Source: Deltaproteobacteria bacterium
GTDB lineage: Bacteria > Desulfobacterota > Desulfarculia > Desulfarculales > Desulfarculaceae
NCBI GenBank assembly: GCA_020444205.1
Contig: JAHLLJ010000016.1
Location: forward strand, 1-45,881
DNA length: 45,881 nt
Reading direction: 5' to 3'
The notes beneath the pieces were generated by a model, which was given only the letters and a program-made list of their open reading frames with translations, was not told the DNA's origin and ran no database searches. Both the position numbers and the translations under genes were made by a program. Below are positions 15,359 to 34,829 of this stretch, in pieces; position 1 is the stretch's first letter; each line of letters starts with the position of its first letter.

Positions 15359-15561
15359 AGGTACTCTACTTCCATCTTTGGTTTTAGATGGTCCTTGTGG
15401 GAGGCGACCAAACCATGATCCCAGGCTCTCAATGAAAGCGCCATCAGAAGGTAGGGGCCGATGCCTCGCACCCTGCTTGTCGCTTTATCGCCCTTGCCGG
15501 ACCCGGCAACCAACCGCCTGGTCCTTAGATTCAGGCCGGGAGCTATCCCGTGCCCCTTGCC

Positions 15562-15612
15562 CGGAGGCCCGGCGGCGCCATCTTCTTGGCGCCTTTTGCC
15601 GGGCCGCCTCCG
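15562..15612. repeat. Long GC-rich imperfect inverted repeat
   Basis: The outer arms are CGGAGGCCCGGC and its complement interrupted by three bases near the right end. The inner arms GGCGCC / GGCGCC flank an 8-base loop. On the minus strand it would fold into a long, very stable stem in the livK-livH spacer. There is no T-tract. Confidence 0.5.
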
Positions 15613-15759
15613 CGAGAGGCGCGGAACCAGCCTGAGCAGGGTGCCCTCAGGGCCAGAGCCAAGCCGCTTTCCCGGTCCACCAACGGTAGTTCCGGTGCTT
15701 GCCGCCTCGCCTGTGCGCCGTATCGGCGCCTGAGCCGTAGCCCTCTGGCCGTGTTGGTG

Positions 15760-15795
15760 TACCGGCGTTTCCCCCCGGAGAGGGAAACGCCGGTA
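15760..15795 (-). terminator. Stem-loop directly downstream of livK
   Basis: A perfect 14-base stem (TACCGGCGTTTCCC at 15760-15773, complement at 15782-15795) with an 8-base loop begins 15 bases after the livK stop. It lacks a T-tract, so it is more likely an mRNA-stabilising 3' structure or partial attenuator than a full rho-independent terminator. Confidence 0.6.
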
Positions 15796-15809
15796 ATGCT
15801 TGGGATCTA

Positions 15810-17012: not shown

Positions 17013-17064
17013 GCTAACTTCCCTCCCTACCACAAGTAAAACTGAGAATGATCTGGGGTTGCCA

Positions 17065-18258: not shown

Positions 18259-18307
18259 CGCGTTAATGTCCTTACTTCAGAACGGGAATTAAGAAAATAG
18301 GCTCGCA

Positions 18308-19081
18308 TTAGCCAGCCATCCACCCCCCATCGATGAAGATAACTTCGCCGGTGATGTAGTCGGAAGCCGGGCAAGCCAGGAACAAGGCGGCATACCCGAT
18401 ATCCTCGGGCGCCCCAAAACGTTTCAAGGGGATGCGTGAGAGCATCCAATCTTGGGTGTCGGGGTTGGTAAAGGCGGCTTCGGTCATGGTGGTACGCACG
18501 TAACCCGGAGCCACCGCGTTGACGTTTATGCCCTCGCTGGCCAGTTCCAAGGCCATGGATTTGGTCAAGGAGAAAATGCCCCCCTTGGCCGCGCCATAGG
18601 CGGAGATGTTGGGCACCGCGATCTTGCTGGTCAAGGAAGCCAGGTTGATGATCTTGCCGCCGCCGGCTTTGGCCATTTGGCGGGCCGCCGCCTGGGCCAT
18701 GAAATAGGCCCCGCGCAACTGGATGGCCATGACATTGTCAAAGTCTTCGGGCTCGAACTCCAGGAAAGGCTTGCGGATGTTGGAGCCCGCATTGTTGATG
18801 AGCACGTCCAGACGGCCGAAACGGTCCAGGGTCTGCTGTACAATGTCCCCGTAGCCGCCGATCTGGCTGAGGTCGGCGCTAATGGTTTCCACCTCGCGGC
18901 CGTAGCGCTCCCTGATCATTTCGGCGGACGATTGGAGCTGGGATTCGCTACGGGCCACCAACACCAGGTCCGAGCCGGCCCCGGCCAGCACCTCTGCGAT
19001 GCCCAGGCCGATGCCCCGGCCGCCGCCGGTTACCAAACTAACTTTTTTGTCCAATGAGAAGGCGTTGCTCTCGTAAGCCAT
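18308..19081 (-). CDS. SDR-family NAD(P)-dependent oxidoreductase
   Basis: The 257-residue classical short-chain dehydrogenase has the nucleotide motif TGGGRGIG (18-25), NNAG (96-99) and the catalytic S149, Y162 and K166 (YGAAK). The arginine and serine in VARSES after the second beta strand suggest NADP(H) preference. The C terminus DYITGEVIFIDGGWMAG is standard. The overall style is close to gluconate 5-dehydrogenase or 3-oxoacyl reductase relatives, which would suit sugar acids or hydroxy acids, but the substrate cannot be assigned. It is the first gene of the minus-strand catabolic cluster, preceded by a promoter-like TTGACA and a CG-centred palindrome. Confidence 0.92.
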   Translation of the reverse strand: MAYESNAFSLDKKVSLVTGGGRGIGLGIAEVLAGAGSDLVLVARSESQLQSSAEMIRERYGREVETISADLSQIGGYGDIVQQTLDRFGRLDVLINNAGSNIRKPFLEFEPEDFDNVMAIQLRGAYFMAQAAARQMAKAGGGKIINLASLTSKIAVPNISAYGAAKGGIFSLTKSMALELASEGINVNAVAPGYVRTTMTEAAFTNPDTQDWMLSRIPLKRFGAPEDIGYAALFLACPASDYITGEVIFIDGGWMAG

Positions 19082-21495: not shown

Positions 21496-22338
21496 TCAGC
21501 CCTCCTTCCGGATGGCTTGGGCCCGTCCAATGGCGCCCTCGTAGGTCTCCCAGAAGGTGGGACGCTCGTGGTCGGCCAAGACACCAATGGCGAAGCGGCC
21601 CTCTCGCTGGGCCGGGCTCATTTTGTCCCAGCGGTCCATGCGCACCGCCTGTTTCTTAAAGCCCTTCATCATCTCCACCTGGCTGCCCAAACGGTTCTGC
21701 CTGCCAAAGTTGGTGTGACAGGGGCTAAGCACCTCCACCACCCCGAATCCCTTTTTGGCTATGGCCTGGCCCAGCATCTGGTCCAGCTGGGTCACGTGGT
21801 AAACCGTTGAACGGGCCACGAAAGAAGCCCCAGCGGTCACCGTAAGGGCGCTGATGTCAAAGCTGGGCTCGGAGTGGCCATAAGGCGCGGTGGTGGCCTT
21901 GGAGCCCAAGGGGGTGGTGGGGCTGTACTGGCCGCCGGTCATGCCGTAGGTCAGGTTGTTGACTATGATGGCGGTCAGGTCCAGGTTGCGCCGGGCGGCG
22001 TGAATCAGGTGGTTGCCGCCGATGGCCGTGGCGTCGCCGTCGCCCATGACCACGATCACCTTTAGGTCCGGCTTGGCCAGTTTGATGCCCGTGGCAAAGG
22101 TGAGCGCCCGGCCGTGGGTGGTGTGCACGCTACCCACGTCCACGTAGACCGGCAGTCGGCCCGAGCAGCCGATGCCGCTGACCAGCACCACCTGGTTCTT
22201 GTCGTAGCCGCCTTGGGCCAGGGAACGCACCAGGGAGCCCAGGAGAATGCCCAGGCCACAGCCGGGGCACCAAACGTGGGGAAACTTCTTGTCGTGACGC
22301 AGCCACTCATAGACCACGCTTCTATGCACCGCCGTCAT
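21496..22338 (-). CDS. korB: 2-oxoacid:ferredoxin oxidoreductase, beta (TPP-binding) subunit
   Basis: The 280-residue beta subunit binds thiamine diphosphate. It shows HVWCPGCGLG (C24, C27), SGIGCSGR (54-61), THGRALTFATGIKLA, the TPP/Mg motif GDGDATAIGGNH (99-110) and VNNLTYGMTGGQYSPTTP (126-143). The enzyme decarboxylates a 2-oxoacid, such as 2-oxoglutarate, to the acyl-CoA and reduces ferredoxin. The real start is the ATG at 22336-22338, which shares one base with the alpha-subunit stop (TGATG). The longer frame upstream is an out-of-frame read of the alpha gene. Confidence 0.94.
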   Translation of the reverse strand: MTAVHRSVVYEWLRHDKKFPHVWCPGCGLGILLGSLVRSLAQGGYDKNQVVLVSGIGCSGRLPVYVDVGSVHTTHGRALTFATGIKLAKPDLKVIVVMGDGDATAIGGNHLIHAARRNLDLTAIIVNNLTYGMTGGQYSPTTPLGSKATTAPYGHSEPSFDISALTVTAGASFVARSTVYHVTQLDQMLGQAIAKKGFGVVEVLSPCHTNFGRQNRLGSQVEMMKGFKKQAVRMDRWDKMSPAQREGRFAIGVLADHERPTFWETYEGAIGRAQAIRKEG

Positions 22339-23519
22339 CAGGCCACCTCCCGCATGCGGCCCAGGATCTCCTCGGGGGTGATCATGGTGCCGTCCATCTT
22401 GCTGTGACGAATCACCTGGGTTCGTCCGTCGTTGACCCTTTTGACCTCGCGGCTTATCTGGCCCATGTTCAGCTCGGGTACCAGGGCCGCCTTGCGGCCG
22501 GTCAGGGCCACTTCCACCGCCTGGCGGGGGAAGGGCCACAGGGTGAGCAATTGCAACAGGCCCAACTTGATGCCCCGCTCCCGGCCTAGGCGAACCGCCG
22601 CCCGGCAGGAGCGGGCGGTGCAGCCATAGGAGATCAGCACGATCTCAGCGTCGTCCATGGCGTATTCCTTGGTCAACATGAGGTCGTCGAAGTGGCGGCT
22701 GATCTTGCCGAAGAGCCTGGCGTAGAATGGCTCCACCTCATCGGCCCGCCGGGTGGGAAAGCCCCGCTCATCATGCACCAGGCCGGTAACATGGTAGCGG
22801 TATCCCTCGCCCAGATCGGCCAGACGGGGGATCAGGCTGCCATCGGTTTTGTAAGGCACGTACCAGTCTGGGGGTACGGTGGGGCGCCGGCGGTCGATGA
22901 CTTCCAAATCGCCCTCGGCCGGCAGCACCACTTTTTCGCGCAAGTGGGCCACGGTCTCGTCGGCCAAAAAAATGACCGGAGTGCGAAAACGCTCGGCGGT
23001 GTTGAAGGCCTTGACCATCAAATCAAAGCACTCGCTCACCGAGCTGGGACAAAACACGATGGCCGGGTGGTCGCCGTGGGTGCCCCAGCGGGCCTGCTGC
23101 ACATCGCCCTGGGCCACATTGGTGGGCAGCCCGGTGCTGGGGCCGCCGCGCATCACATTGACCACCACCATGGGTGCCTCTACGATCATGCCGTAACCCA
23201 GGTTTTCTTGCATAAGGGAAAAACCCGGGCCGCTGGTAGCGGTCATGGCCTTGCGCCCGGCCAGGGAAGCGCCCACGCAGGCCCCAATGGAAGCGATCTC
23301 ATCTTCCATCTGAATGAAGGGATTGCCCCTGACCGGCATCTCGCGGCTCATGTATTCGGTAATCTCGCTGGCCGGGGTGATGGGATAACCAGCGAAGAAA
23401 TTACATCCAGCGGCCAGGGCCCCCAAGGAAGCGGCCTCGTTGCCTTGCAGCAGCCGCGCCCGGCCCTTGCGGCCCGCCTTGGCCGTTCTGCCCGCCGGCT
23501 TTTTGGTTCCTGCGGCCAT
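22338..23519 (-). CDS. korA: 2-oxoacid:ferredoxin oxidoreductase, alpha subunit
   Basis: The 393-residue alpha subunit lacks the fused gamma domain, as in four-subunit Kor enzymes. Visible motifs are GNEAASLGALAAGCNFFAGYPITPASEITEYMS (26-58), MEDEIASIGACVGASLAGRKAMTATSGPGFSLM, VVVNVMRGGPSTGLPT, QARWGTHGDHP and the C-terminal LLTLWPFPRQAV. GYPITP and the TSGPG stretch are the classic alpha-subunit signatures. The first 20 residues are basic and Gly/Ala/Lys-rich, probably unstructured. It overlaps korB by one base and lies 2 bases after the ferredoxin subunit, so the operon is translated as a unit. Confidence 0.94.
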   Translation of the reverse strand: MAAGTKKPAGRTAKAGRKGRARLLQGNEAASLGALAAGCNFFAGYPITPASEITEYMSREMPVRGNPFIQMEDEIASIGACVGASLAGRKAMTATSGPGFSLMQENLGYGMIVEAPMVVVNVMRGGPSTGLPTNVAQGDVQQARWGTHGDHPAIVFCPSSVSECFDLMVKAFNTAERFRTPVIFLADETVAHLREKVVLPAEGDLEVIDRRRPTVPPDWYVPYKTDGSLIPRLADLGEGYRYHVTGLVHDERGFPTRRADEVEPFYARLFGKISRHFDDLMLTKEYAMDDAEIVLISYGCTARSCRAAVRLGRERGIKLGLLQLLTLWPFPRQAVEVALTGRKAALVPELNMGQISREVKRVNDGRTQVIRHSKMDGTMITPEEILGRMREVA

Positions 23520-23521
23520 GA

Positions 23522-23887
23522 CTATTTCTCCTCCCGCGGCACCGGGGCCAAACGCTCCGGACTTATGTTGCTGGCGGCCTTGGCGGCATCGGACTTGTCC
23601 TGTTTCACTTCCAGAGAATCCTTGGCTCCGCTTGGGTGGGCAAGGTCAACCGCTCCGGGTTTTTCGTAGCCCACAGTGATGGCAAAATCGGGACAGAGCA
23701 TCTCGCACAGGCCGCAACCGGTGCAGCGCTCCTTGTCCACCTGCCGGGGATAACCCCACTCGTCGGCGACCAGTATGCCCACCGGGCAAAAAGCCACGCA
23801 ATTTCCGCAACGCTTGCACCAGGCAGGGTAAAAGCTGTGCTTGGTCTGAGGCTTGCCTCGTTTGGTGGCCGCCTTATTGGCGATCAT
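23522..23887 (-). CDS. korD: 2-oxoacid:ferredoxin oxidoreductase, delta (2[4Fe-4S]) subunit
   Basis: The 121-residue ferredoxin subunit has two complete CxxCxxCxxxC clusters (C24, C27, C30, C34 and C55, C58, C61, C65), each followed by Pro. This is the electron outlet of the Kor complex. Beyond residue 75 there is a charged tail (PSGAKDSLEVKQDKSDAAKAAS) of no recognised function. GGAG lies 7-8 bases before the ATG. It is the first gene of the korDABC unit and is separated from the upstream GntR-type regulator by a long non-coding stretch. Confidence 0.92.
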   Translation of the reverse strand: MIANKAATKRGKPQTKHSFYPAWCKRCGNCVAFCPVGILVADEWGYPRQVDKERCTGCGLCEMLCPDFAITVGYEKPGAVDLAHPSGAKDSLEVKQDKSDAAKAASNISPERLAPVPREEK

Positions 23888-24354
23888 TTCACTACTCCAA
23901 AGACTAGATCCAGTAACCAGATTTCATTGGCGCTCAAGGCGCCCTACCCTTTTGCCGCTTGATGTCCTAGGTCAGCCTGCGGACTGTTTTCCCACGCATC
24001 ACCAACTATACCCAGGTGAGCCTTCTCAAGGATAGGGGCCTGGGTGTCTTGGTTGTTGCCGATGTCTGTCTCTAAAGAGCCCGTTCCCTTAAACTGCTGA
24101 GTTGCCTTGGCCCCGCTTAAGCCCACCGCTGCCCAAACCTCCAGTCGCACAGCACGCTCTCCCACCCCCGCCGCCCGCCAAAAGAACGGCCGCCCCATCA
24201 CCAAGCGCACTGATTCACTCGGCGCCTGGTCCAGGGGCTGAAAGGTTGTTTCGTGCATCGTGCGCTTTCGTTATTTCCTTGACCGGCCCGCTGAGTCCGC
24301 TTGCCCGGACTCCGCCCGGCAGTTGGACCGGCCGTGGCGCTGGTCTGGTTTTTA
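23888..24354. other. Intergenic region between the GntR-type regulator and korD
   Basis: About 465 bases. A minus-strand open frame (23944-24258, 104 codons) covers much of it, but it has no convincing ribosome-binding site, no recognised motif and a composition unlike its neighbours, so it is not called. The kor promoter should lie in the part nearest korD, but I cannot point to a clear -35/-10 pair. A small GC-rich dyad (GGCGC-TCAAG-GCGCC) lies around 23929-23943. Confidence 0.4.
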
Positions 24355-25074
24355 TTAAATCTCCAGCCCCAGACGCCGCGCGGCCATCCGCAGATGGGCC
24401 AAGGTTTCTTCTCTGGCTTTTTGGGGATCGCGGGCCTCTATGGCCCGATAGATGCTCTCGTGCTCTTTTTGCACCTGCCGTGGCACCCCGGGGTTCTGCC
24501 GCGAGTTCAGCCTGGCCTCCTGAATGAGCACCAAAAGCTTGTCGTTGAGGAACTGCATGAGGTCGCACAAATGCTGGTTGCCACTGGCCTCGGCTATGCC
24601 CCGGTGGAAGTCCAGGTCCGGCACCGCGCCAATGGTGTCGTCCTCCACCGCCCGGGCCATGGCCACCACACACTGGCCTAGCTGGGCCACATCGCGGGTG
24701 CTGCCCCGGGAGGCGGCCATAGCCGCGGCCTCGCCCTCCAGGATGGCCCTCAGCTCGTAGAGATGAGTCAGGGATTGCGAGCTAAACTTGTCCGGGTCTT
24801 CCAGGCGGAAGAAACGCCGCCCGGACCGGCCCACCACAATGACTCCCCGGCCCTGTTGGGACTCCAGCAGGCCCTCCGCCTTAAGCTGAGAAAGGGCCTC
24901 GCGGATCACCGCCCGGCTTACGCCGAACCTGGTGGCCAGCTCCATTTCAGGCGGAAGCATCTCGCCCGGCTTGAGCGTGCCGTTATCCAACTCTTCCATG
25001 AGGATCGTTGCCACCTGGTCAGGGAGCCGCAGGGGCTGCTTCAACTCATATTTGTCTGACAACATGCTTTCCAT
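24355..25074 (-). CDS. GntR-family (FadR/FCD subfamily) transcriptional regulator
   Basis: The 239-residue regulator has a winged helix-turn-helix (residues about 18-75: LPDQVATILMEELDNGTLKPGEMLPPE, then MELATRFGVSRAVIREALSQLKAEGLLESQQGRGVIV) and an all-helical FCD effector domain with the metal-binding pattern LDFHRGIAEASGN and later HESIYRAIEARD plus HLRMAA. FCD regulators bind carboxylic acids such as lactate, pyruvate, malonate or sugar acids. It lies upstream of korDABC on the same strand and is the obvious candidate to control it. Two ATGs (25074 and 25065) are possible; the first lies three bases from a palindrome, so binding there would directly block expression of this gene. Confidence 0.92.
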   Translation of the reverse strand: MESMLSDKYELKQPLRLPDQVATILMEELDNGTLKPGEMLPPEMELATRFGVSRAVIREALSQLKAEGLLESQQGRGVIVVGRSGRRFFRLEDPDKFSSQSLTHLYELRAILEGEAAAMAASRGSTRDVAQLGQCVVAMARAVEDDTIGAVPDLDFHRGIAEASGNQHLCDLMQFLNDKLLVLIQEARLNSRQNPGVPRQVQKEHESIYRAIEARDPQKAREETLAHLRMAARRLGLEI

Positions 25075-25206: not shown

Positions 25207-25236
25207 AAAAAAAGGACCGCCCTGTAAGGGCGGCCC
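25207..25236 (-). terminator. Rho-independent terminator of the GAK operon
   Basis: On the minus strand a 10-base GC-rich stem (GGGCCGCCCT / AGGGCGGTCC, one G-T pair) with a 3-base loop is followed by seven consecutive Ts. It lies 22 bases after the stop of the CXXXCH-protein gene and ends the seven-gene minus-strand operon. Confidence 0.9.
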
Positions 25237-25257
25237 AAAAATTATAGCGAAAAGGCT

Positions 25258-25863
25258 TTATTTGAACTTGTCGTGGCACTCACTTTTGCATTGGCCCAGC
25301 TCTGCCAAGGCCTCGTCCGCGGCCGGGCCGTCATCAGCGGCCAAGGCAGCCTCCAAACTATCTAGGGCAGCCAAAAAGCGGGGGTAATTTTCACTGCCGT
25401 ATTTGGCTTTGTCAACGGTGCACATCTCTCTGGCGCTGGCCACGAACACGGAGGCGTCAGCCGCCTCGGGCATGCCGCCCTCCTTGCGGGCTTTCTTCAT
25501 ATTGCTGAAGCTTTTAGCCATGGCCTTTTTGAGCTTCTTATAAGACGTCTTGCCCTCGCTATCGGCGGTTTCCTGATCGGGCGCGGTGATCTCCACGAAT
25601 CCCTGGGTGTCCTCCTGTAGCGGAGCTTCCTCGGATTCCGGCTCCGGCATGGGGGCCACGATCTTCAGGTTGACCTTCAGGGTGGCCTTGCCCGACTTGG
25701 TCTTGAGTTCCTGTTTGACCTTTACATCACTCTCCAACTCCAAATCCTCGGAGCGCAACTCCAGGTGCCCCTGTTCCAGGGCGTCGGCCAGTTGGCGTAG
25801 ATAGTCCGCCGCCTCGGCCGGGGAAAACCGGTGCTTGGTTTTATTTTTCTTGGGAGTGTCCAT
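25258..25863 (-). CDS. GAK-system amphi-Trp/CXXXCH protein
   Basis: The 201-residue protein has two parts. Residues about 10-70 match an amphi-Trp domain (RFSPAEAADYLRQLADALEQGHLELRSEDLELE, then alternating hydrophobic strands ATLKVNLKIVAP). After an acidic linker (72-105), residues 106-201 form a helical unit ending in QCKSECHDKFK, with the CXXXCH motif C192-x3-C196-H197 that gives the XXXCH family its name. The end resembles the CxxCHxxxR/K tail of cytochrome c' four-helix bundles but with three residues between the cysteines. No signal peptide is present, so periplasmic heme attachment is unlikely; the motif may bind a metal or be redox-active. It is the last gene of the GAK operon, 43 bases after the CofD-like gene, with GGAGG before the ATG. 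Function unknown. Confidence 0.88.
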   Translation of the reverse strand: MDTPKKNKTKHRFSPAEAADYLRQLADALEQGHLELRSEDLELESDVKVKQELKTKSGKATLKVNLKIVAPMPEPESEEAPLQEDTQGFVEITAPDQETADSEGKTSYKKLKKAMAKSFSNMKKARKEGGMPEAADASVFVASAREMCTVDKAKYGSENYPRFLAALDSLEAALAADDGPAADEALAELGQCKSECHDKFK

Positions 25864-25906
25864 GATAGCCTCCTAAATTAAACATGCGGCGGACACCGCC
25901 GTGGTC

Positions 25907-27109
25907 TCATACCAAAGAGAGTAGGGCCTCAGCCAAAAGACGCCCATCGGTAAGGGGCGCGCTTGCCGGGGTAATCAAGTCAGCCTCTATTACCTTGAGG
26001 CCCATGTCCTCCAAGGCTTGGCGCTCCACCCCGCCGGGGTAATCCCTCCAGCCCCGGTCCAAGAGCACGTAGTCCAGCACCCTGCCCTCGGCGCGCCGTG
26101 CAGCCCGGGTGGCTCCCAGGGTGGCCACCAGTTCGGCTGTCCGCTCAGCCACCCCACCGGCCAGCACCTCCTGGTCCGGCGCGGTGTTTGGCACATACAC
26201 CTTGGGGCAGGGGTTGGCAGCCACCGCCTCCCCTATCCCCTCGGGCAATAGGCTGGCCAAAAGGCTGGTGTAAAAGCTGCCCACCGGATAGCAGATGAGC
26301 TCCGCTCCGGCGATGAGCTGCCTCACCTTGGGCCGTATTTCCGCTGTTGCCGGGTTCTCCTCCTCCAGCCCTTGATTCAGGCCCAGCTCAATGATGGGAG
26401 AGCCAAGGGGCGGTTCGTTGCGCCCGGTGAGCCGATGCTGCCCCAACACCAGGCTGCCGTCGGCCAACCGGGCGGCCAGGTGCAGGTTGCGGTTTACCAC
26501 TGGGCGCACCACGCCACGCACCTCGGCCAGCTTGGAGAACAGAAAGATCACCGGATCCAGGTGGCGGCCGTTGTTCAGGTAACCGCCAACCAACACCAGG
26601 TTGCCGATGCTGGCCCCAGCCAGGTCGAAATCGCCGGGCATGGCCGTAACGAAGTAGCTCAGGTGGTTGCGGATGATCTTGCGCAGGGGATCGGGAATAG
26701 CCGCCACCATGGGATCGTCTCCCGCGGTCATGGCCTCCAGGCGCTCCACCAGCTCATCGGTTTCGGCGTCCAAGGGTAAACGATAGGTGAACAGGGTGCG
26801 CACCTCGGTGTTACCGCGCACGCTCATATCGCTCAGGGTCATCATGCGGTTGCGCAGGTCGCCCACCGCAGGCATGGCAAAGGCCCGGCGCAACACTGCC
26901 GAGGAGCCGCCCGAATCAAAAGGGGTGATTAGGTGGATGGAGTTGTGGGTGTAGTTGATCAACTCTCGGCACATGGGCCCCGGGCCGCTGCCCCCGCTAA
27001 AGAACAATATGCCGGGACCCAGCTCGGGCACCCGGGCATAGCGGGCCAAACGCACCGGATCCGGCACGCGCAAGGGACGAGTTATGGTCAGTCCGTCCTG
27101 GTGGCTCAA
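25907..27109 (-). CDS. GAK-system CofD-like protein
   Basis: The 400-residue protein belongs to the CofD/YvcK fold, which includes 2-phospho-L-lactate transferase and the nucleotide-sugar-binding YvcK/GlmR. Seen: ILFFSGGSGPG (34-44), matching the GGGTG nucleotide loop; HLITPFDSGGSSAVLRRAF (59-77); GDLRNRMM (83-90), close to the family's GDxRN; and GNLVLVGGYL. The distal LICYPVGSFYTSLLASLLPEGI is also typical. Length and placement match the GAK-system CofD-like family. It might transfer a phosphorylated group from a nucleotide-activated donor, or sense a nucleotide sugar; neither is shown. Its ATG overlaps the kinase stop by 4 bases (ATGA), so it is translationally coupled to the kinase. Confidence 0.9.
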   Translation of the reverse strand: MSHQDGLTITRPLRVPDPVRLARYARVPELGPGILFFSGGSGPGPMCRELINYTHNSIHLITPFDSGGSSAVLRRAFAMPAVGDLRNRMMTLSDMSVRGNTEVRTLFTYRLPLDAETDELVERLEAMTAGDDPMVAAIPDPLRKIIRNHLSYFVTAMPGDFDLAGASIGNLVLVGGYLNNGRHLDPVIFLFSKLAEVRGVVRPVVNRNLHLAARLADGSLVLGQHRLTGRNEPPLGSPIIELGLNQGLEEENPATAEIRPKVRQLIAGAELICYPVGSFYTSLLASLLPEGIGEAVAANPCPKVYVPNTAPDQEVLAGGVAERTAELVATLGATRAARRAEGRVLDYVLLDRGWRDYPGGVERQALEDMGLKVIEADLITPASAPLTDGRLLAEALLSLV

Positions 27110-28179
27110 GATTTTTGCAACTCCCCGGCCAGCATGTCAGCCGCCTTGGCAAAATCCACGCCACCGCTGAGCACGAACACCCTGGCCCCGGTTAATACCC
27201 TGAGGTAGTCCTCCTGGCTGGGAGCGTTTTGCCCTTTGGGCGGCAGGTAGAACAGCCCCGGCTCTTTCATAAAGGAGGCCAACAGGTTTGGGTGATCGGC
27301 CAGATCCACCTGGTCCAGACGGCAGGCTCCAGCGTCCCTGTCCCAGTCCAGTAAGGCCAGCATATCCAAGCTGAAGCCCATCTTGATGAGCCCAGGGCCA
27401 AAGCAGGTGTCGATGTCCACGTCGTACTTGTGCTCCAGGGCCCAGAGCTGGTCCGGGGGTAAGGCGGCAAAGCGCTCTTGGTCCTCGAGGCTCATGACTT
27501 TTTTCAGGTTGGGATTGTTCAGCGCGGTGCCGGGGTTGATGCGAGGCAGCTTGGCCAGTCCGGTCATCACGGGCCCATTCTGGCCTTTGGTAACCATTAG
27601 GCGGTCATTGGAGATGAAGGTGGCTCCCCGGCTCATCAGATGCAAGGCCAGGGTGGATTTGCCCTTGCCCGCCTGCCCGGCCATAGCCAGGCCCAGGCCG
27701 GGTCCGCACACCCCGGCGGCGTGGGCCAAAAGGGCGCCCCGCTCCAGCTCCCATTGAATCTGGCGGTTGTTGATGAAGTTGATAACCTGGTTGGGGTTGG
27801 CCAGGCAAGGCCCCAGGGCCAGGTTGGTTTGGCCACCAAAGATAAAAACCATGCCCGTGAGGCGCTTGCGAACCAGGCGCCCGCCCACCAGGTCAATGTA
27901 CTCTTCCTTTATCTTGGCCTTGCCCGGTTCCAGCGGCTTGTGGCGCAGCTCAAGGCCGCAGTCCCAGGCTGGGGTCTCCAGGGCGTACACGGTAATTTGC
28001 GCCTCACCCTGAGACGGCTCGATAAAAGGCCGGTAATAGCGCTTCAGCTCTTGGGCCAGTTCGGCGCGGTTGGTTTTGACCTCAAAGTTCAGTTTGTTCA
28101 GGCGCAGGCGCAAGCTGATGCCCGCGGGGTTTTCCCGCAAAAGCTCCCGGGCCAACTCCTGTACTTGGGGCGCGCTCAT
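27106..28179 (-). CDS. GAK-system HprK-related kinase B
   Basis: The 357-residue protein has a P-loop AGQAGKGKSTLALHLMSRG (167-185) followed by FISNDRLMV (188-196), as in HPr kinase/phosphorylase where the P-loop is followed by a strand with the catalytic acid. Unlike HprK it has a different N-terminal half (LRLNKLNFEVKTNRAELAQELKRYYRPF, then FIFGGQTNL and NNRQIQWELERGALLAHAAGV). It lacks the canonical HprK K3 loop that I could identify. No HPr or other PTS gene is nearby, so its target is unlikely to be HPr; an amphi-Trp protein in the same operon is a natural candidate (inference). Start and stop overlap both neighbours by 4 bases. Confidence 0.9.
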   Translation of the reverse strand: MSAPQVQELARELLRENPAGISLRLRLNKLNFEVKTNRAELAQELKRYYRPFIEPSQGEAQITVYALETPAWDCGLELRHKPLEPGKAKIKEEYIDLVGGRLVRKRLTGMVFIFGGQTNLALGPCLANPNQVINFINNRQIQWELERGALLAHAAGVCGPGLGLAMAGQAGKGKSTLALHLMSRGATFISNDRLMVTKGQNGPVMTGLAKLPRINPGTALNNPNLKKVMSLEDQERFAALPPDQLWALEHKYDVDIDTCFGPGLIKMGFSLDMLALLDWDRDAGACRLDQVDLADHPNLLASFMKEPGLFYLPPKGQNAPSQEDYLRVLTGARVFVLSGGVDFAKAADMLAGELQKS

Positions 28180-29069
28180 GAGGCCAACTCCCGGCAGACA
28201 TAGTCAGCATAATGTTGGGCCGCATCCATGCCGCATCCCTCCTTTAGGCCCCGGAAGCCGCCAAAGGCGCTGACCTCAAACACCGCCGGCCCTTGGGCAG
28301 TCTCCGCCACATCCACACAGGTGAAATCCAGATTGAACAGGGCCTGGGCCTTGTGGGCCAGATCCTTGATCTGCTGGCTGGGCTCGTAGCTTTGGTAGCG
28401 CCCCCCCGCCCGGCGGGTGGTGTTCCAGGAGTTTCCATTGGCCACCCTGGCGTAGGTGGCCAGATACTTGCCGCCCAAAAAGACCACGCCCAGGTCCTGG
28501 CCGGGCAAGGAGAGCATCTGCTGTAAATAGATCATGGGATGTCCCGCGTCGCGGTATTGGGCTATTTGCCCGCGCAGCCCCGGGCCGGGCTCCACCACCA
28601 ACATGCCTCGGGCCTTGGTGGAGTAAAGTGGCTTGAGCACGCTGCGGCCCATGCGCTCCACCGCACGGGCGGCCTCTTCCACGCTTTCGCTGACCACGGT
28701 GGCCGGCATGGGTATGCCCCCGGCGGTTAGGGTCACGGTGCAACTCAGGCGGTCTAGCATGGCCATTATGGAGGCCGGCGGTGAAAAAATGCGCGGCCCC
28801 TGAGAGGCGATGAACCGCAGCAGTTCCAGGCGATCCAACAGCTCGGGAGAGTACTCGGCTCCCACCTTTTTTATAACCAGGCCGTCCAGGGCGGTCAGTT
28901 CCACATCGTTGAAATAGGCCCGGCCGGAAGCCAAGTCACAGCGCACCTGGGCCATATCCACCAAACAGCGGAAACCGGTTCGCTCATCCAGAGCGTCCAG
29001 CAGACGCTCGCTGGACCAACCGCCCTCGATGCCCACCACGGCCACTTTTGGTTTTTCGGTTGCAATCAT
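28176..29069 (-). CDS. GAK-system ATP-grasp enzyme
   Basis: The 297-residue protein has the ATP-grasp fold of the RimK type. It has an N-terminal Rossmann-like part (KVAVVGIEGGWSSERLLDAL), the central LDRLSCTVTLTAGGIPMPAT (105-124) that precedes ATP-binding in RimK/DdlB-like ligases, the ATP-contact LKPLYSTKARGM (145-156), YLQQML, and the metal-binding end FTCVDVAETAQGPAVFEVSAFGGF. In most relatives the last motif reads E-x-N; here it is E265-V-S267, so metal coordination may differ. ATP-grasp enzymes of this group join a carboxylate to an amine or thiol through an acyl-phosphate. It overlaps the kinase gene by 4 bases and follows the PhoU-phosphotransferase gene by 16 bases. Substrate unknown. 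Confidence 0.9.
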   Translation of the reverse strand: MIATEKPKVAVVGIEGGWSSERLLDALDERTGFRCLVDMAQVRCDLASGRAYFNDVELTALDGLVIKKVGAEYSPELLDRLELLRFIASQGPRIFSPPASIMAMLDRLSCTVTLTAGGIPMPATVVSESVEEAARAVERMGRSVLKPLYSTKARGMLVVEPGPGLRGQIAQYRDAGHPMIYLQQMLSLPGQDLGVVFLGGKYLATYARVANGNSWNTTRRAGGRYQSYEPSQQIKDLAHKAQALFNLDFTCVDVAETAQGPAVFEVSAFGGFRGLKEGCGMDAAQHYADYVCRELAS

Positions 29070-29085
29070 TGTGTGTCAGCTCAGC

Positions 29086-30738
29086 TTAGGGATAGATCAA
29101 AGTTTGCCGGGGCAGCTTGAACTGCGACCAATCCCTGCCCCGGTGAGCGACCACCCGCTCCAACAGGTACACGGACCTCAGATGCATTTCCCGGGCAAAG
29201 GTTTTGTTCATTTCAAAGCGGGTAGAGGAAAACAAAGAGCGCCCCAAACCCAGGGCCAAGCGGGCTTGGAAGGTACTGTCGCCTATGTTGTAGGCGAAAT
29301 CCAGGGCAAAGCCCAAAAAACGCCCCATGACCATGCTGATACGGCGGCGAAGCTCCGGCTCGAAAACCGGCAGGCGGAAGTTGGAAATGAGAAACACCGA
29401 AATGTCCTGGGCGCAGTCGGCCAGGGCCGAACGGTGCAGGTCTATGAAATGCAGGCGTTGCCGGGCAGGATCGAAGATCACGTTGTTGAGGTTCAGATCG
29501 CCGTGGGTGCGCACTGCGTAGGGCGCGGCCAACTCGGGCTCCAGCTCCTCCAGAATGTTCAACATGCCTTCAAAGGAAGGCAGCCGCAGATTGCCGATGG
29601 ACACAGGCTTGCTCTGAAACTCCGGATGCATGCGATACACCGCTTCCTGGCGGGATCTTATCTGCCTTACAAAATCCGGACGCTGGGAACGCGGCTGCTT
29701 GGTGGCCCACCAAACCTTGCCCAGGGTGGCCTCCAAAAGGTGCTCGGAAATCTCCAAGCCCTCATCGTCGCCGTTGATGATCAAATCCTGCATGGTACAG
29801 CCGGGCAGGTATTCCAAAAGAATAGAGCCCTCCCCGTCCTCACCCTCCTGAAAGGCCCAAACCTTGGGGGGAAGTCCGGGAGCCAAATCTTCCCATAGCT
29901 CCAGATTCTCTTTTTCCTTGGCCAACTTTTTGGCCACGCCCTGCTTGAACAACACCGGGCTGGAGGATGCGGGGCCGGGGTCCTGCACAGCCGCGATGCG
30001 GCAGCCGCCCCTGGTGCCCCAGATCGACTCGAACTCCACCTGACCCATGGAGGATTCAAGGCCCGAGGCGGCCAAGGTGTCGCTCAGGGCCTGGTATTGG
30101 CGAATCTTCATTTTTTCGCCCACCAGCACGAAGATCAGCGCCTCGCCAATGTTCAACAGACAGTCACCCATGCGCTCCAGGTAGTGGCTCATGAACACGA
30201 TGGTCACCAGGTCGCCCCGGTGCTCGTTGTGCTCCATCTCCCGCAGCACCTCGTCAAAAGTCTGGGCGTGCAGCTTGTCCAGGTTGAACTCGCACTGGCA
30301 GATACGGAATGCCTTGTTGGAGTTGCGCTGATCCAGGGCCCCCACGATATTGTCCAGCCCCACCAGAACTTCGTCAAAAAAGGGCGCAAAGTCCATGAGC
30401 CGGCTGGACTCCAGATGCACCAGGTGGCCCATTTGGCCCACGAGGTTCACCGCGAAATCGGCGATGCGCTCCAGGTTGGCGGTAATGGTGGTCAGCGCCC
30501 TCAACTCCACCACCTTGGCCCGCTCTATGCCCCTGGGGTCCATGAGGCGGTCGAAGCTTTGCTCTTCGATGACGCTCTTCAGGTTGTCCACGTAGTCGTC
30601 GCGGGAGCTGATTTTTTCCATCAGCTCCCGGCTGGGCTGGTCATAAAAGCGCCGGGTCAGCTCCACCTGTGCCGTAACTTCGCTGACGATGAAGCGGAAA
30701 TTTTCCCGCACCTCTTCGAGGCGGTGCATGGCTGACAT
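29086..30738 (-). CDS. PhoU-like domain fused to an aminoglycoside-phosphotransferase-type kinase domain
   Basis: The 550-residue protein combines two domains. Residues about 1-220 are helical and carry the two PhoU repeats, seen in ANLERIADFAVNLVGQM (87-103) and HYLERMGDCLLNIGEAL (185-201), with the E/R/D pattern that binds metal clusters in PhoU. Residues about 240-550 are a kinase of the APH/choline-kinase type: VLFKQG (K265 a possible ATP lysine), ILLEYLPGCTMQDLI, catalytic loop RTHGDLNLNNVIF (410-422, HGDxxxxN) and the metal Asp in FIDLHRS (D433). PhoU proteins sense phosphate status; APH-type kinases phosphorylate small molecules or proteins. The fusion suggests phosphate-status control of a phosphorylation step. 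It lies 10 bases after the amphi-Trp gene and 16 before the ATP-grasp gene. A second ATG at 30729 may be the true start because GGGAA is better placed for it. Confidence 0.88.
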   Translation of the reverse strand: MSAMHRLEEVRENFRFIVSEVTAQVELTRRFYDQPSRELMEKISSRDDYVDNLKSVIEEQSFDRLMDPRGIERAKVVELRALTTITANLERIADFAVNLVGQMGHLVHLESSRLMDFAPFFDEVLVGLDNIVGALDQRNSNKAFRICQCEFNLDKLHAQTFDEVLREMEHNEHRGDLVTIVFMSHYLERMGDCLLNIGEALIFVLVGEKMKIRQYQALSDTLAASGLESSMGQVEFESIWGTRGGCRIAAVQDPGPASSSPVLFKQGVAKKLAKEKENLELWEDLAPGLPPKVWAFQEGEDGEGSILLEYLPGCTMQDLIINGDDEGLEISEHLLEATLGKVWWATKQPRSQRPDFVRQIRSRQEAVYRMHPEFQSKPVSIGNLRLPSFEGMLNILEELEPELAAPYAVRTHGDLNLNNVIFDPARQRLHFIDLHRSALADCAQDISVFLISNFRLPVFEPELRRRISMVMGRFLGFALDFAYNIGDSTFQARLALGLGRSLFSSTRFEMNKTFAREMHLRSVYLLERVVAHRGRDWSQFKLPRQTLIYP

Positions 30739-30747
30739 TTCCCGCGC

Positions 30748-31035
30748 TTAACTTGCCTTGATGGGTTCGATGAGCAGAGGCTGGTCCTCGGGGTCTTCAC
30801 TGCCCTTCTTTTCATTCCAACGCATCTTGAGCGAAAGCTTTATTTCCTCGCCCTTGCGTTTGGCCTCCACGTGCAGGTTGATCAAGCCTTCGGGCTTGAG
30901 CACCAGGTTGCGGCCGTCGGTGGAAAATAGCAGGGCCCCGCTCTCAAAACCATCTTTAAGGGCTGTCAGGTAGTTAATGATGCTTTGGCAGTCCTGTAGG
31001 GACTCATGCCGAAAGCGGTTGGTGGTGGAACTCAT
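30748..31035 (-). CDS. Amphi-Trp domain protein
   Basis: The 95-residue protein is a single amphi-Trp domain: FRHESLQDCQSIINYLTALKDGFESGALLFS, then LVLKPEGLINLHVEAKRKGEEIKLSLKMRWNEKK. The alternating hydrophobic strands ending in the Trp of MRW give the family its name. It is small, cytoplasmic by appearance and lies in the operon among a kinase, an ATP-grasp enzyme and a CofD-like protein. It is therefore the best candidate for a carrier or substrate protein of the system (inference). Its function is unknown in any organism as far as I know. AAGGA lies about 11 bases upstream of the ATG; 20-base and 10-base gaps separate it from its neighbours. Confidence 0.88.
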   Translation of the reverse strand: MSSTTNRFRHESLQDCQSIINYLTALKDGFESGALLFSTDGRNLVLKPEGLINLHVEAKRKGEEIKLSLKMRWNEKKGSEDPEDQPLLIEPIKAS

Positions 31036-31055
31036 TGGTCCATATCCTTGTTAAT

Positions 31056-32237
31056 TTAATCTAGGCGGGCCTGGTATTCGTCTATGACTTGGGAGCGGCT
31101 GGCCCCGGCTAGGCTGAGGCTCTTACGCACCGCCACCTCGTCCCAGGCCGGTTGCAGGCCCACTTCCCGCTTGTATTTGGAAGGCTCCACCTGCCCCGGA
31201 TCCTTGAGCTTGACCGACATGTGAGTGTCGTCGCCCATGAAGATGAGCATTTGGCGGCGCCCTGCGGGGCGGCTCTTGTTTTGATTGGTCAGGGCCCGGA
31301 TCAAAAATTCGGTGTACTCGCGTGATTGAGGGTTCCAAACCTCCACCCCGTCCACGTCATAGTCGGCCAGCAGGATGGGCCAGAACTGCTCGGGGTGAGG
31401 AATCACCACACCGCCGCCCAGGGAACGCGCCTCCTCGATCACCTCGCTGGCCCGGAAGAAGTAGCTCAGGGAGAAATGCTGCTTTACGATGGCCTTTACC
31501 GCCTTGAGCAAAAGCTGGGCACGATTGACCATCAGATCCGTGTGGCGGCCGCGCTGGGCGTCGATGTATTCGGTCAAAAGCTTATTCTTGATCATGGCCG
31601 GAGGGGTCTCGGCCAGGTTCATCTCCACCAAACGGCGCAGGCGGGTGGTGTAAAAACGCACGAAAGCCACCACCTCCTCGCTGGAGCCGGTGTCGTTGGC
31701 CGCCTTTTCCAGGCGTTCGGCCAGGGCGGGCTGGGTGATGGTGTCCATGAACTCATACATTTGGCCGGTGCGGTACTTGAAGGTATGCTCCAGCATGGCG
31801 CGCAGCACGTTGGCCTCGTTCAGGGACTCGGTCTTGAAGTGCAACAGGAGTTGCACCTTACGATTGAAGCCCGAGGAGTAGCAGTCCACCTCCACCCCGC
31901 TATAGCCGTTCCAGCCCAATATCTGGTTGTGCTGGGTGGGAATGATCAGGCTTTTGCCCGCGTTGGGGTAAAGGGTGGCTACCCGCTGGGCGGTAAGCTC
32001 CATGGGAATCCACTCCGGGTGCCAGTGGATAGCCAAAACCTCGCTCTGCCGGGGATAGCTGGCTTCGGGGTCCGCGACCCGCTCACGTTGTTCGGGAGTA
32101 AGCTCGGTGGAAACGATGCGCTCATACTGGGCCTGATCCCAAGAATCTATGTCCGCCACTGCCCGGTCCAGATCGTAATCCGGCGGGATAGAGGGAACGG
32201 AAACCTGATTTTCCTGGGCCCGGCTTTTGTCGCTCAT
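31056..32237 (-). CDS. PHP-like metallohydrolase, first gene of the GAK operon
   Basis: The 393-residue protein was not recognised by name, but the metal-ligand pattern fits the PHP (polymerase and histidinol phosphatase) superfamily. It has an early HxH pair in LAIHWHPEW (H71, H73, with E75), TQHNQILGWNGYSGVEVDCY (H103), LLHFKT (H133), then GGGVVIPHPEQFWPILLADYDVDGVEVWNPQSREYTEFL (H281) and the terminal IFMGDDTHMS (D336, H339). The stretch from IPHPEQF to GDDTHM is the typical PHP end (aHP, dgiEvxN, gsDaH). A long helical insert (about 140-260) separates the halves. A phosphatase or phosphoesterase would complement the operon's kinases. It leads the operon, with GAAGGGG before the ATG. The family call is by eye. 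Confidence 0.75.
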   Translation of the reverse strand: MSDKSRAQENQVSVPSIPPDYDLDRAVADIDSWDQAQYERIVSTELTPEQRERVADPEASYPRQSEVLAIHWHPEWIPMELTAQRVATLYPNAGKSLIIPTQHNQILGWNGYSGVEVDCYSSGFNRKVQLLLHFKTESLNEANVLRAMLEHTFKYRTGQMYEFMDTITQPALAERLEKAANDTGSSEEVVAFVRFYTTRLRRLVEMNLAETPPAMIKNKLLTEYIDAQRGRHTDLMVNRAQLLLKAVKAIVKQHFSLSYFFRASEVIEEARSLGGGVVIPHPEQFWPILLADYDVDGVEVWNPQSREYTEFLIRALTNQNKSRPAGRRQMLIFMGDDTHMSVKLKDPGQVEPSKYKREVGLQPAWDEVAVRKSLSLAGASRSQVIDEYQARLD

Positions 32238-32537
32238 AAACTTTTTCGCCCCTTCAATCGCACCGTCCAGCCTAAATTCGCCAGCCGTTCCCTATCTTTA
32301 AATAGAGCTAACCCTTCATCGGCTGATAATTTGTTTGGCTTTCCATAATAACAATTAGGTTGGAGCTTAATTGTTAAGCTTCGGTTACATCGCCCCGCTA
32401 TCCGCTTCCTTTAAACGGTAACTTTTCCTTCGGAAAGATGTAACAAAATGCCCTTAACCTTCAGTATAAAGGGAACATTTGGAAAATTAAAACCCGACTA
32501 TTATCCTTTTCCTTTTGGATCAGGGCGATATACAACC
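32238..32537. other. Divergent control region, GAK operon / cyclic-di-GMP protein
   Basis: About 300 bases, AT-rich, between two divergently transcribed units. The main feature is a pair of overlapping inverted repeats at 32349-32380. A plus-strand reading frame opens at 32448, but its first 30 codons are AT-rich and unconserved, so the gene is started at 32538. Confidence 0.5.
32349..32380. promoter_or_regulatory. Two overlapping dyads between divergent promoters
   Basis: TAACAATTA (32349-32357) and TAATTGTTA (32368-32376) form a perfect 9-base inverted repeat with a 10-base spacer. Sharing its right arm, AGCTTAA (32364-32370) and TTAAGCT (32374-32380) form a second perfect 7-base repeat. 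The first fits a dimeric regulator binding on one face of the helix. Confidence 0.5.
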
Positions 32538-34829
32538 ATGATTTCAAGCGCCGACAAAACCAGCCCCGCCAGGGTGCTGCATCATCCAGGGATTTCCTTT
32601 AGCGATCGCCTGGAGCACGACCTGGGTCAGGCTTTGTACGAGGCGGCTGAGCCGGACAAGCCCATGGCTCTGGTTTTGGTCTGCCTCAACTCCTTCAACC
32701 TGTTCAGCCGCCTGTACGGCGGTGAGGCGGCAGCCAGGGTGCTGGAGCGCCTGCATGAGATGCTGATGCGCTTGGGCCCCAAGAGCATGGGGCGAGCCCG
32801 GCTGCTGGCCCTGGAAGCCGACGACCCGGGGTCCATGGTGATGATGCTCCAGGACGGCCCAGAGTTGCTCACCCACCTCATGGAGCGCTCCCTGGTGCTC
32901 AGGGCCGCCCTGCGCCAACATCTGAACAAGGAAATGATCCAAATCACCGGTCAGCCTCTGGCTCTAAGCATCGGCTTTGCCCGGGTGGAGCCCGCCCCGG
33001 CCGAGCGGCTGCCGGAGTTGGTCTACCGGGCCTTGCGCGACGCCCGCCAGGTGGCCGAAGGGAGCCTGGATCTCAAGAGCATGAACTTGCTGGAGGAGTT
33101 TCGCCGTCTGGTGGAGCAGCCTCTTTTGCATTCGGTTTATGAACCCATCGTGGACCTGCAGAGCGGGCAGGTGAAGGGATGGGAAGCCTTGGCCAGGGGC
33201 CCAGCGGACGACTACTTCCATTCGCCCGAGGTCATGTTTGATTTTGCCGACGAAGTGGGCGCCCTATTTCATCTGGAAAAAGCCTGCCTGCGCCAAGCCG
33301 TCCTGGGAGTGGGCCGCCTGGATTCCAATCAAAATCTTTTCCTCAACATCAATCCCGAGACCCTGGCCGACCCCAAGTTCCGCGACGGAGATTTCCTGTG
33401 GTTATTGAGCCGCCATGGACTGCGCCCCCAGGACATTGTGTTCGAGATCACCGAACGTCATTCCATCGGCGACTTGGGCAGGTTCCACCGGACCCTGCAG
33501 CATTACCGCTCCCAGGGTTTTTCTTTGGCCATAGACGACATGGGCACCGGCTATTCCGGCCTGATGCGCATAGCGCTCTTGCGCCCCGAGTTCCTCAAGG
33601 TGGACATGTCTTTGATACGGGGTATTGATTCCAACCCCATGCAGCGGGCCCTGGTGGAGACCCTGGTCACCTTTGCCGAAAAGGTGGGCGGCACCCTTAT
33701 CGCCGAAGGAATAGAGACCGCCACCGAGTTCTCCAGCCTGCGGGGCATGGGGGTGCGCTATGGCCAGGGCTATTATCTGGCCCGCCCGGCCAGCGAAAAG
33801 CCCAGGCCCAAAATCAACCGGGTGGACTTCCCCACCGGCCAGGGCGAAGCGGCACTGCACTACAACCAATGCTCTTTTGCGGTGCGCAACCTGGTGGAGC
33901 AGGCGCCTCAAGTGGGTCCCAGGGCCACGGTACGGGAGGTCAAAGAGGTGCTGGACAAGGCCCCCATCAGCGGCTGCCTGGTGGTCGACCGCGCACTCCC
34001 CTTGGGCTTGGTGATGAGCCACAACTTGGACCGTATCCTGGGCACCCCCTTCGGCTCATCCCTTTACTATGACCGCGAGGTGGCCCTGGTTATGGACGAT
34101 CAGGCCCTGATCGTTGACAGCGGCACCCCGGTGCAGCAGGTGGCGGAAAAGGCCATGGCCCGGGACAAGCTCAAGCTCTACGACCATATCGTGGTCACAG
34201 AGGAAGGACGCTCCATGGGAGTGGTCAGCGTGCAGCGCATGCTCGACGCCCTGGCCAAGGTTCAGGTGGAGATGGCCAAGGGGGTCAATCCCCTCACCGG
34301 GCTGCCAGGAGGGGTGGTACTGGAACAAGAGATAGAGCGGCGTAGCGCCAGCGAAGACGCCGCCAGCATCATCTACGTGGACCTGGATCATTTCAAGGCT
34401 TACAACGACACCTATGGGTTCGAGGCCGGTGACCGCATGATCCGCATGCTGGCCGACCTGTTGCAATGGTCGGTGCGCCGCCACGGCAACTCAGGCGATT
34501 TGGTGGGCCACGTGGGCGGCGACGACTTCGTGGTGGCCACCACCCCGGACAAGGCCGAACGCCTCTGCCGCGCGGTGGTGCGTTGCTGCACCCGCTTGTT
34601 GCCCCGCTTTTACGGTCAGGAGCACCGCAAAGCCGGTCAGGTTGAGGCCCGGGGCCGTGACGGCAAACCGGGAGTGTTCCCCTTGGTGTCCATTTCCCTG
34701 GGCATTGTGGATTGCCCTTCCTCTTGCAGCCTGCTGCATGTGAGCCAGCGGGCCGCCGAAGTGAAATGCTACGCCAAATCTCGGCCCGGCAATGTGTTCG
34801 TACGCGACCGAAGACGCTCCAACCCATAA
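32538..34829 (+). CDS. Cyclic-di-GMP signalling protein: degenerate GGDEF - EAL - CBS-like pair - GGDEF
   Basis: The 763-residue soluble protein starts with a GGDEF-like domain without the catalytic motif (about 20-185). An EAL phosphodiesterase domain (about 190-420) follows with intact motifs: EALARG (216), NINPET (270), EITER (303), DDMGTGYSG (333), KVDMSLIRG (354), EGIET (390) and GQGYYLARP. Next comes a CBS-like region (about 440-590), then a GGDEF domain with GGDDF (660-664) and VDLDHFKAYND, so the cyclase site is probably active. This EAL-CBS-GGDEF order is known in several proteobacteria. No transmembrane segment is seen. The start at 32538 is chosen on composition; an ATG at 32448 is possible. 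The gene is transcribed away from the GAK operon and shares its control region. Its stop overlaps the T-tract of the opposing terminator. Confidence 0.9.
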   Translation: MISSADKTSPARVLHHPGISFSDRLEHDLGQALYEAAEPDKPMALVLVCLNSFNLFSRLYGGEAAARVLERLHEMLMRLGPKSMGRARLLALEADDPGSMVMMLQDGPELLTHLMERSLVLRAALRQHLNKEMIQITGQPLALSIGFARVEPAPAERLPELVYRALRDARQVAEGSLDLKSMNLLEEFRRLVEQPLLHSVYEPIVDLQSGQVKGWEALARGPADDYFHSPEVMFDFADEVGALFHLEKACLRQAVLGVGRLDSNQNLFLNINPETLADPKFRDGDFLWLLSRHGLRPQDIVFEITERHSIGDLGRFHRTLQHYRSQGFSLAIDDMGTGYSGLMRIALLRPEFLKVDMSLIRGIDSNPMQRALVETLVTFAEKVGGTLIAEGIETATEFSSLRGMGVRYGQGYYLARPASEKPRPKINRVDFPTGQGEAALHYNQCSFAVRNLVEQAPQVGPRATVREVKEVLDKAPISGCLVVDRALPLGLVMSHNLDRILGTPFGSSLYYDREVALVMDDQALIVDSGTPVQQVAEKAMARDKLKLYDHIVVTEEGRSMGVVSVQRMLDALAKVQVEMAKGVNPLTGLPGGVVLEQEIERRSASEDAASIIYVDLDHFKAYNDTYGFEAGDRMIRMLADLLQWSVRRHGNSGDLVGHVGGDDFVVATTPDKAERLCRAVVRCCTRLLPRFYGQEHRKAGQVEARGRDGKPGVFPLVSISLGIVDCPSSCSLLHVSQRAAEVKCYAKSRPGNVFVRDRRRSNP

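Follow-up and report, generated by a model that had tools for sequence, protein, structure and literature searches.

The GAK system is known through five protein families of the NCBIfam collection (TIGR04354 to TIGR04358); we found no function reported for it in the open-licence papers of PubMed Central (PMC), where the exact family names occurred only in a paper on a Salmonella phage genome. Several better described systems share components with it: the Pho regulon and Pst-PhoU system through a PhoU domain, and the tailoring of F420 and methanopterin through CofD, which works there with an ATP-grasp enzyme of the MptN or CofF type. In eukaryotes, phosphate signaling by inositol pyrophosphates relies on VIP/PPIP5K, which combines an ATP-grasp domain with a histidine phosphatase, and on the NUDIX hydrolase DIPP. 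Here we analyze a GAK operon in a 45,881-nucleotide stretch of contig JAHLLJ010000016.1 (assembly GCA_020444205.1), hereafter the window, whose phylum we take to be Desulfobacterota. All five families are found within this one operon, each over the curated cut-off of its model, against which all NCBIfam matches were judged. The names of the GAK models, the only thing compared in this respect, include neither the PhoU-APH kinase, a fusion of a PhoU-like domain with an APH-type kinase, nor a phosphohydrolase, yet both recur as partners here. Two kinases (PhoU-APH and an HprK-like one), an ATP-grasp ligase and amphi-Trp proteins form the GAK core, which is paired with at least one phosphohydrolase. 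With a probability of roughly 0.4, we propose that the kinases and phosphohydrolases act in a phosphate-linked cycle whose substrate is a polyphosphorylated molecule.

The seven open reading frames (ORFs) of the operon are all on the minus strand and span positions 32237 to 25258 of the window, with gaps of 20, 9, 16, −4, −4, and 43 bases between successive ORFs as calculated from their coordinates. The first (31056–32237, 393 residues) encodes a protein that resembles PHP-fold metallo-phosphohydrolases. It is followed by a single-domain amphi-Trp protein of 95 residues (30748–31035; TIGR04354, 70.1 bits, cut-off 31), the 550-residue PhoU-APH (29086–30738), a RimK/MptN-like GAK ATP-grasp enzyme of 297 residues (28176–29069; TIGR04356, 436.8 bits, cut-off 300), for which MptN is the next best NCBIfam model, and the 357-residue HprK-related kinase B, or HprK-B (27106–28179; TIGR04355, 456.6 bits, cut-off 200). 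The CofD-like protein of 400 residues (25907–27109; TIGR04357 CofD_rel_GAK, 497.5 bits, cut-off 340) also matches the Pfam CofD family PF01933; its TTG start overlaps the stop of the preceding gene, and it is 85% identical to that of a Desulfarculaceae metagenome-assembled genome, the closest named relative found. The last protein (25258–25863, 201 residues) joins a second amphi-Trp domain (TIGR04354, 38.7 bits, cut-off 31) to an XXXCH domain with a C-terminal CxxxCH (TIGR04358, 69.9 bits, cut-off 40). An intrinsic terminator, detected by hairpin search and RNA folding on the same strand (25214–25236), consists of a 10-pair stem with eight G-C pairs, read from 25236 to 25214, then seven T; its RNA folds at −23.1 kcal/mol (z −2.30), with 5 of 200 shuffles equally good. 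A preliminary description of this DNA had proposed seven closely spaced genes on one strand, a strong terminator after the last of them, and membership in the GAK set, and it was right on all three. The grouping is not due to chance, because the identical gene order recurs in further families of the window's phylum; the seven genes are a complete GAK operon of the type found in this phylum.

We surveyed 395 genomes of the window's phylum and designate the surveyed loci by L-numbers and the genomes by G-numbers. In 24 of these genomes HprK-B exceeded its cut-off, at 28 places altogether; CofD_rel_GAK did so in 32 genomes, and the PHP-like family was present in 29 at E ≤ 0.001, once weakly (G250, E 3.4e-4). 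PhoU-APH stands beside HprK-B at 24 of the 28 places, including a fragment at a contig end (L193) and a broken copy (L069), and the PHP-like gene at 21, the places where it is missing being L043, L044, L046, L194, and the contig ends L193, L195, and L196. The recurrence of both genes with GAK, which the preliminary description had left to be surveyed, is thus established. HprK-B and PHP share a genome 20 times where 1.7 were expected, and HprK-B and CofD 19 times where 1.9 were expected; the p values of this comparison ignore relatedness, and the weak match in G250 was left out of it. Amphi-Trp proteins are present in nearly all GAK loci. PHP occurs without HprK-B in eight genomes. Four loci from the class of the window (L109, L110, L113, and L114) retain PHP–amphi-Trp–PhoU/APH only, the stretch being free of matches to ATP-grasp, HprK-B and CofD, while L111 and L112 carry PHP alone and L106 carries PHP plus a separate PhoU. 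Since the PHP–amphi-Trp–PhoU/APH set can stand alone, the operon looks like two modules, this one and ATP-grasp–HprK-B(–CofD–XXXCH). In L043, L044, and L046, an ATP-grasp–HprK-B pair is followed by peroxiredoxin, PTA, AckA, and CofD, and XXXCH–PHP–amphi-Trp–PhoU/APH–HprK-B are found at another place of the same genomes. PHP, PhoU-APH, and CofD of the L069 operon are each in pieces, through decay or sequencing error.

The Pseudomonadota sample comprised 299 genomes, and a search for full-length PhoU-APH covered 150 Pseudomonadota genomes. The GAK ATP-grasp enzyme exceeded its cut-off in 12 of the 299; at these 12 loci PhoU-APH always stands beside it, HprK-B is always present, amphi-Trp is present at 11 (L152 is cut by a contig end, and the copy of L155 is about 4 kb away), and CofD at 2. 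Full-length PhoU-APH was found in 9 of the 150 genomes, all nine positive for the ATP-grasp enzyme (in G395 as two pieces in one frame), and the other matches at E ≤ 1e-20 span the PhoU part only; the positive genomes G556, G558, and G586, apparently outside the 150, have PhoU-APH in their loci. CofD_rel_GAK was over cut-off in six genomes, five of them among the 12 ATP-grasp-positive ones (Fisher p 2.4e-7). As it was found over cut-off in just these 5 of the 12 GAK genomes, CofD is an optional member. Five of 20 listed plasmid records, all from Rhodobacterales, are annotated with a GAK ATP-grasp enzyme; the three plasmids examined carry a phosphotransferase, ATP-grasp, HprK-B, a histidine phosphatase, a metallophosphoesterase, and amphi-Trp, and two of them CofD. 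PhoU-APH is the most constant GAK partner and belongs to the core in two phyla. Of the two "extra" members named in the preliminary description, both do recur, but PhoU-APH is no extra and PHP belongs to the window's phylum.

PhoU-APH matches both PhoU (PF01895, 74.1 bits, cut-off 23.5) and APH (PF01636, 31.6 bits, cut-off 23.2). Its score with the PhoU equivalog TIGR02135 (79.2 bits) is under the cut-off of 130.25, so that it is a PhoU-domain fusion and not PhoU itself, and its profile retrieves PhoU (1.9e-18) and APH(3') (2.9e-7) from the PDB. K265, HGD414, N419, and D433 are invariant across 25 aligned rows. HprK-B has a Walker A motif ending in GKST and an NDR motif, which are kept in the aligned rows. 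The ATP-grasp signature, EVSAFGG in the window, reads EVSA[FL]GG throughout the alignment; of its 47 rows 45 were kept, and these represent 43 distinct loci since the seed was counted again and one locus twice. When 12 loci were scanned for paralogues (RimK-like or other ATP-grasp enzymes), six, every one of them from Pseudomonadota, showed a paralogue with EVN or EIN at this place; five gave no match, and in L149 the scan met just the GAK motif itself.

By sequence, neither Pfam nor NCBIfam gives a significant match for the first gene, and its sole PDB match was a ribosomal protein (E 0.16), taken as chance, with no PHP chain retrieved. Its AlphaFold model (pLDDT 87.3, pTM 0.82) matched only three PDB entries at E ≤ 0.001 in Foldseek (9etk, 3e0f, and 3o0f), all of them PHP enzymes: the best is RNase AM (9etk, E 7.7e-5, probability 1.00, TM 0.35/0.47), and the remaining relative is the phosphoesterase BAD_1165. 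Alignment of 15 rows shows the invariant motifs HxHPE, TQHN, ExD, H133, HPE, and GDDxH, with H71, H73, H103, E116, H133, H281, D337, and H339 unchanged throughout, which we take to be the metal-binding residues of the PHP motifs. The PHP fold suspected in the preliminary description is therefore confirmed at the level of the predicted structure. In the window's phylum this enzyme occupies a phosphohydrolase slot that other enzymes fill in Pseudomonadota, where the 12 loci carry an ApaH-like (calcineurin-like) phosphoesterase in every case, a histidine phosphatase in 11 (not L148), a SixA-NUDIX fusion in 5 (L151–L155), and PHP in none. The nearest PDB relatives of the Pseudomonadota phosphoesterase are ApaH proteins (E 9e-4), its match to the model NF001204 being below cut-off, and the separate histidine phosphatase is phosphoglycerate-mutase-like. 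The SixA-NUDIX fusion is nearest to SixA (2.3e-14) and, through its NUDIX part, to DIPP1 (1.7e-12) and Ap4A hydrolase (5.3e-12). The substrates of DDP1-type NUDIX enzymes are reported to be diphosphoinositides, dinucleotides, and polyphosphates (PMC8064635). The ApaH-, DIPP-, SixA-, and PHP-like kinds of hydrolase suggest a substrate with several phosphates, which could be a nucleoside polyphosphate, an inositol-pyrophosphate-like compound, or polyphosphate.

The scheme that we infer for phosphate control, for the order of the steps, for the substrate class and for the roles of the amphi-Trp and XXXCH proteins builds on gene content, co-occurrence, catalytic motifs, the predicted PHP and XXXCH folds, and the phosphate neighbors of some loci. 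The PhoU domain would read or relay phosphate status and gate the APH kinase. Both kinases and the ATP-grasp ligase would either build up a small molecule that is phosphorylated and may be amino-acylated as well, or work on polyphosphate, and the PHP enzyme would take phosphate off again. CofD would contribute an optional transfer step, the role of small adaptors would fall to the amphi-Trp proteins, and the protein that joins amphi-Trp to XXXCH may be a cytoplasmic cytochrome c'-like sensor or a metal- or heme-binding adaptor. A reversible cycle was already part of the preliminary description, and the enzymes can indeed form one, since a ligase and a phosphohydrolase accompany two kinase-like proteins whose motifs are conserved.

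GAK is likely tied to phosphate. In L041, genes for a PstS-like protein (called by eye from its N-terminus), pstC, and pstA (14552–18936) immediately precede a complete GAK operon and share its strand, with no pstB seen between, and a Pho-box-like site matches 13 of 14 positions at L041:19172. A pstC-pstA-pstB-phoU cluster adjoins the GAK operon of L053 on the opposite strand, a PhoU gene that of L056, and a Na/Pi transporter with PhoU is near GAK in L151. L152 and L155 have genes for CHAD, a polyphosphate-binding domain (PMC6537752). Some CofD genes outside GAK have similar surroundings, with the order PstA-PstB-PhoU-CofD-MgtE in L042 and, in a single genus, CofD-RluD-PhoU_div-Pit at 10 of its 11 loci; L034, L036, L037, and L049 show no phosphate neighbor among the families tested. 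In L059–L067 and L070, where GAK is lacking, CofD_rel_GAK adjoins genes for a pseudouridine synthase, for DUF47/PhoU_div, and for a phosphate transporter of the Pit type. Pho-box-like sites matching 12–13 of 14 positions precede PhoU-APH in L148, L149, and L150, three of the 15 Pseudomonadota loci, for a Markov expectation of 0.095. At a threshold of at least 13 of 14, the Pseudomonadota GAK loci (265 kb) contain five sites, of which two fall within the operon, inside a gene or between genes; the other GAK loci (517 kb) contain one and the controls (760 kb) none. Over 45 operon starts, some of them approximate as the longest ORF was taken, 20 have a Pho box of at least 8 of 10 (mean 9.45 and maximum 16 in 200 shuffles), an excess that is suggestive only. 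In the Pho regulon proper, PhoU is not fused to an APH kinase as it is in GAK, and we know of no Pho-regulon membership for ATP-grasp, HprK-B, CofD, or amphi-Trp.

Several points weigh against a phosphate-linked cycle. Phosphate genes flank only 6 of 44 GAK loci, compared with 1 of 40 control stretches. The 44 comprise 15 loci from Pseudomonadota and 29 others, chosen without short contigs, second copies, or loci with CofD alone; the controls were positioned manually, in genomes that carry GAK and in the CofD-only genome G161. Two further flanks, in L052 and L055, were discarded, reducing the count from 8 to 6, because the matches were the PhoU-APH gene itself. The window has no phosphate gene beside the operon, and the best Pho-box match upstream of it reaches just 7 of 10. 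At the Pseudomonadota loci, 3 of 154 control upstreams also reach at least 12 of 14 (two sites, one of them matching 14 of 14 before the CHAD gene of L152), and the three positive loci include two, L148 and L149, that seem to be close relatives. The distances of PhoU-APH, ATP-grasp, and HprK-B do correlate in a set of 35 loci from which L161 and L069 were omitted (r 0.66–0.90; 0 of 999 permutations as high), which favors the model and is what co-inheritance would predict, but shared ancestry of the genomes could by itself produce such a correlation. PhoU-APH does not adjoin the ATP-grasp–HprK-B pairs of L043, L044, and L046, whose genomes carry a second locus with PhoU-APH (L104, L105, and L103); the fourth HprK-B place without it, L194, is on a 4-kb contig. 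It is also missing from L162, a second such pair in the genome of L161, and from L160, which has HprK-B and an ATP-grasp enzyme under cut-off (273.7 bits). The PhoU part has few conserved columns in the 25 rows, and the GAK ATP-grasp enzyme, with Ser where RimK paralogues carry Asn, resembles a glutamate ligase, its nearest solved structures being RimK-type glutamate ligases. Finally, the model assumes one common substrate for the different phosphohydrolases.

The cycle could instead modify proteins, with HprK-B and PhoU-APH phosphorylating, and the ATP-grasp enzyme glutamylating, amphi-Trp or another protein, and PHP or ApaH-like enzymes reversing the reaction. HprK kinases have protein substrates, ribosomal protein S6 glutamate ligases are among the nearest PDB relatives of the ATP-grasp enzyme, and amphi-Trp is nearly always there to be modified. 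However, only F8 and W73 are invariant in 24 aligned single-domain amphi-Trp proteins, none of the Ser, Thr, His, Lys or Cys positions is invariant in these, and the C-terminus varies. The lack of an invariant acceptor and the variable C-terminus weaken the case for amphi-Trp as a covalent target, phosphorylated or otherwise, and the carrier or target role given to it in the preliminary description finds little support in the alignment. The NUDIX part of the Pseudomonadota fusion, moreover, resembles hydrolases of small-molecule anhydrides, and we regard protein modification as unlikely. The PDB relatives of amphi-Trp, Cullin-1 (E 0.005) and a fatty-acid-binding protein (0.013), were taken as chance. 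A third amphi-Trp gene of the same genome lies off the operon and outside the window (G000:C61:48073-48273).

Equally doubtful is the biosynthesis of an F420-like or peptide-like cofactor, in which a CofD-type transfer and an ATP-grasp addition of amino acids would be served by kinases and phosphatases preparing the precursors. A CofD-superfamily protein with an MptN-like ATP-grasp enzyme mirrors F420 and methanopterin tailoring, but in GAK kinases and phosphohydrolases are added and the ATP-grasp enzyme reads EVS where paralogues read EVN. In 7 of the 12 Pseudomonadota GAK genomes no CofD_rel_GAK match exceeded the cut-off, nor does this gene adjoin several loci of the window's phylum, and the four class-mates with the PHP–amphi-Trp–PhoU/APH set keep that set alone. 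No further cofactor gene was recognized among the seven operon proteins with NCBIfam and Pfam.

By analogy, GAK might also be a phosphate signaling system with a polyphosphorylated messenger of its own, a functional parallel to the eukaryotic inositol pyrophosphates, although we hold this to be decidedly improbable. The PhoU-gated kinase, the HprK-like kinase, and the ATP-grasp enzyme would produce the messenger, DIPP-like NUDIX, SixA/histidine phosphatases, ApaH-like or PHP enzymes would erase it, and the amphi-Trp proteins and, in the window's phylum, the cytochrome c'-like protein would read it. One GAK locus type does unite ATP-grasp, histidine phosphatase, DIPP-like NUDIX, and PhoU domains. 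In contrast to the eukaryotic system, the GAK ATP-grasp enzyme is nearest to RimK-type ligases, no inositol phosphate enzyme was recognized, and SixA-NUDIX, restricted to 5 of the 12 Pseudomonadota loci, is absent from the window.

The XXXCH domain, whose profile (16 rows) matches cytochrome c' along the C-terminal helix (6e-5), is predicted to be a cytochrome c'-like four-helix bundle. The second half of the amphi-Trp-XXXCH model forms four helices (pLDDT 75.7 and pTM 0.49 for the whole model), and its top Foldseek matches are cytochromes c', the best with E 0.014 and probability 1.00 and none at E ≤ 0.001. Both share the four-helix bundle and an equally placed C-terminal CH. Unlike cytochrome c', the window protein is fused to amphi-Trp and shows no export signal at its N-terminus by eye, which makes heme c attachment doubtful. 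In addition, of the residues invariant in 16 rows (K112, K113, F140, M147, C196, and H197), only C196-H197 belong to the heme motif, whose first Cys is not conserved. A stress module in which the enzymes would respond to redox state, NO or CO as sensed by this domain is consistent with this likeness and with the peroxiredoxin genes that adjoin ATP-grasp–HprK-B in L043, L044, and L046, with another near L156. We consider it very unlikely, given the doubtful heme attachment and the lack of any XXXCH match in 15 Pseudomonadota loci. An anti-phage defense system is barely credible, for although GAK is also on Rhodobacterales plasmids, the seven proteins gave no PADLOC match at E 0.001 and GAK is kept as one operon across many families.

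The operon is separated by an intergenic region (32238–32447), presumed from its position to hold the promoter, from a divergent EAL-GGDEF-CBS gene (32448–34829), a possible tie to cyclic-di-GMP turnover; no promoter was recognized in this region, where the listing of sigma-70-type sites is empty. Past the terminator (21496–25074) lie a gene for a GntR/FCD regulator and then subunits of a 2-oxoacid:ferredoxin oxidoreductase.

In all, GAK markers exceed their cut-offs in 24 of 395 genomes of the window's phylum (HprK-B) and in 12 of 299 Pseudomonadota (ATP-grasp), and copies are found on Rhodobacterales plasmids. The phosphate-gene neighbors of some loci and the predicted cytochrome c'-like nature of XXXCH go beyond the preliminary description; new as well are the PhoU-kinase fusion as steadiest partner, the swappable phosphohydrolase, and the location of some copies in or beside pst operons. 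GAK may thus run a previously undescribed, probably phosphate-linked phosphorylation cycle, and these results make of it a testable phosphate hypothesis with named candidate substrates.

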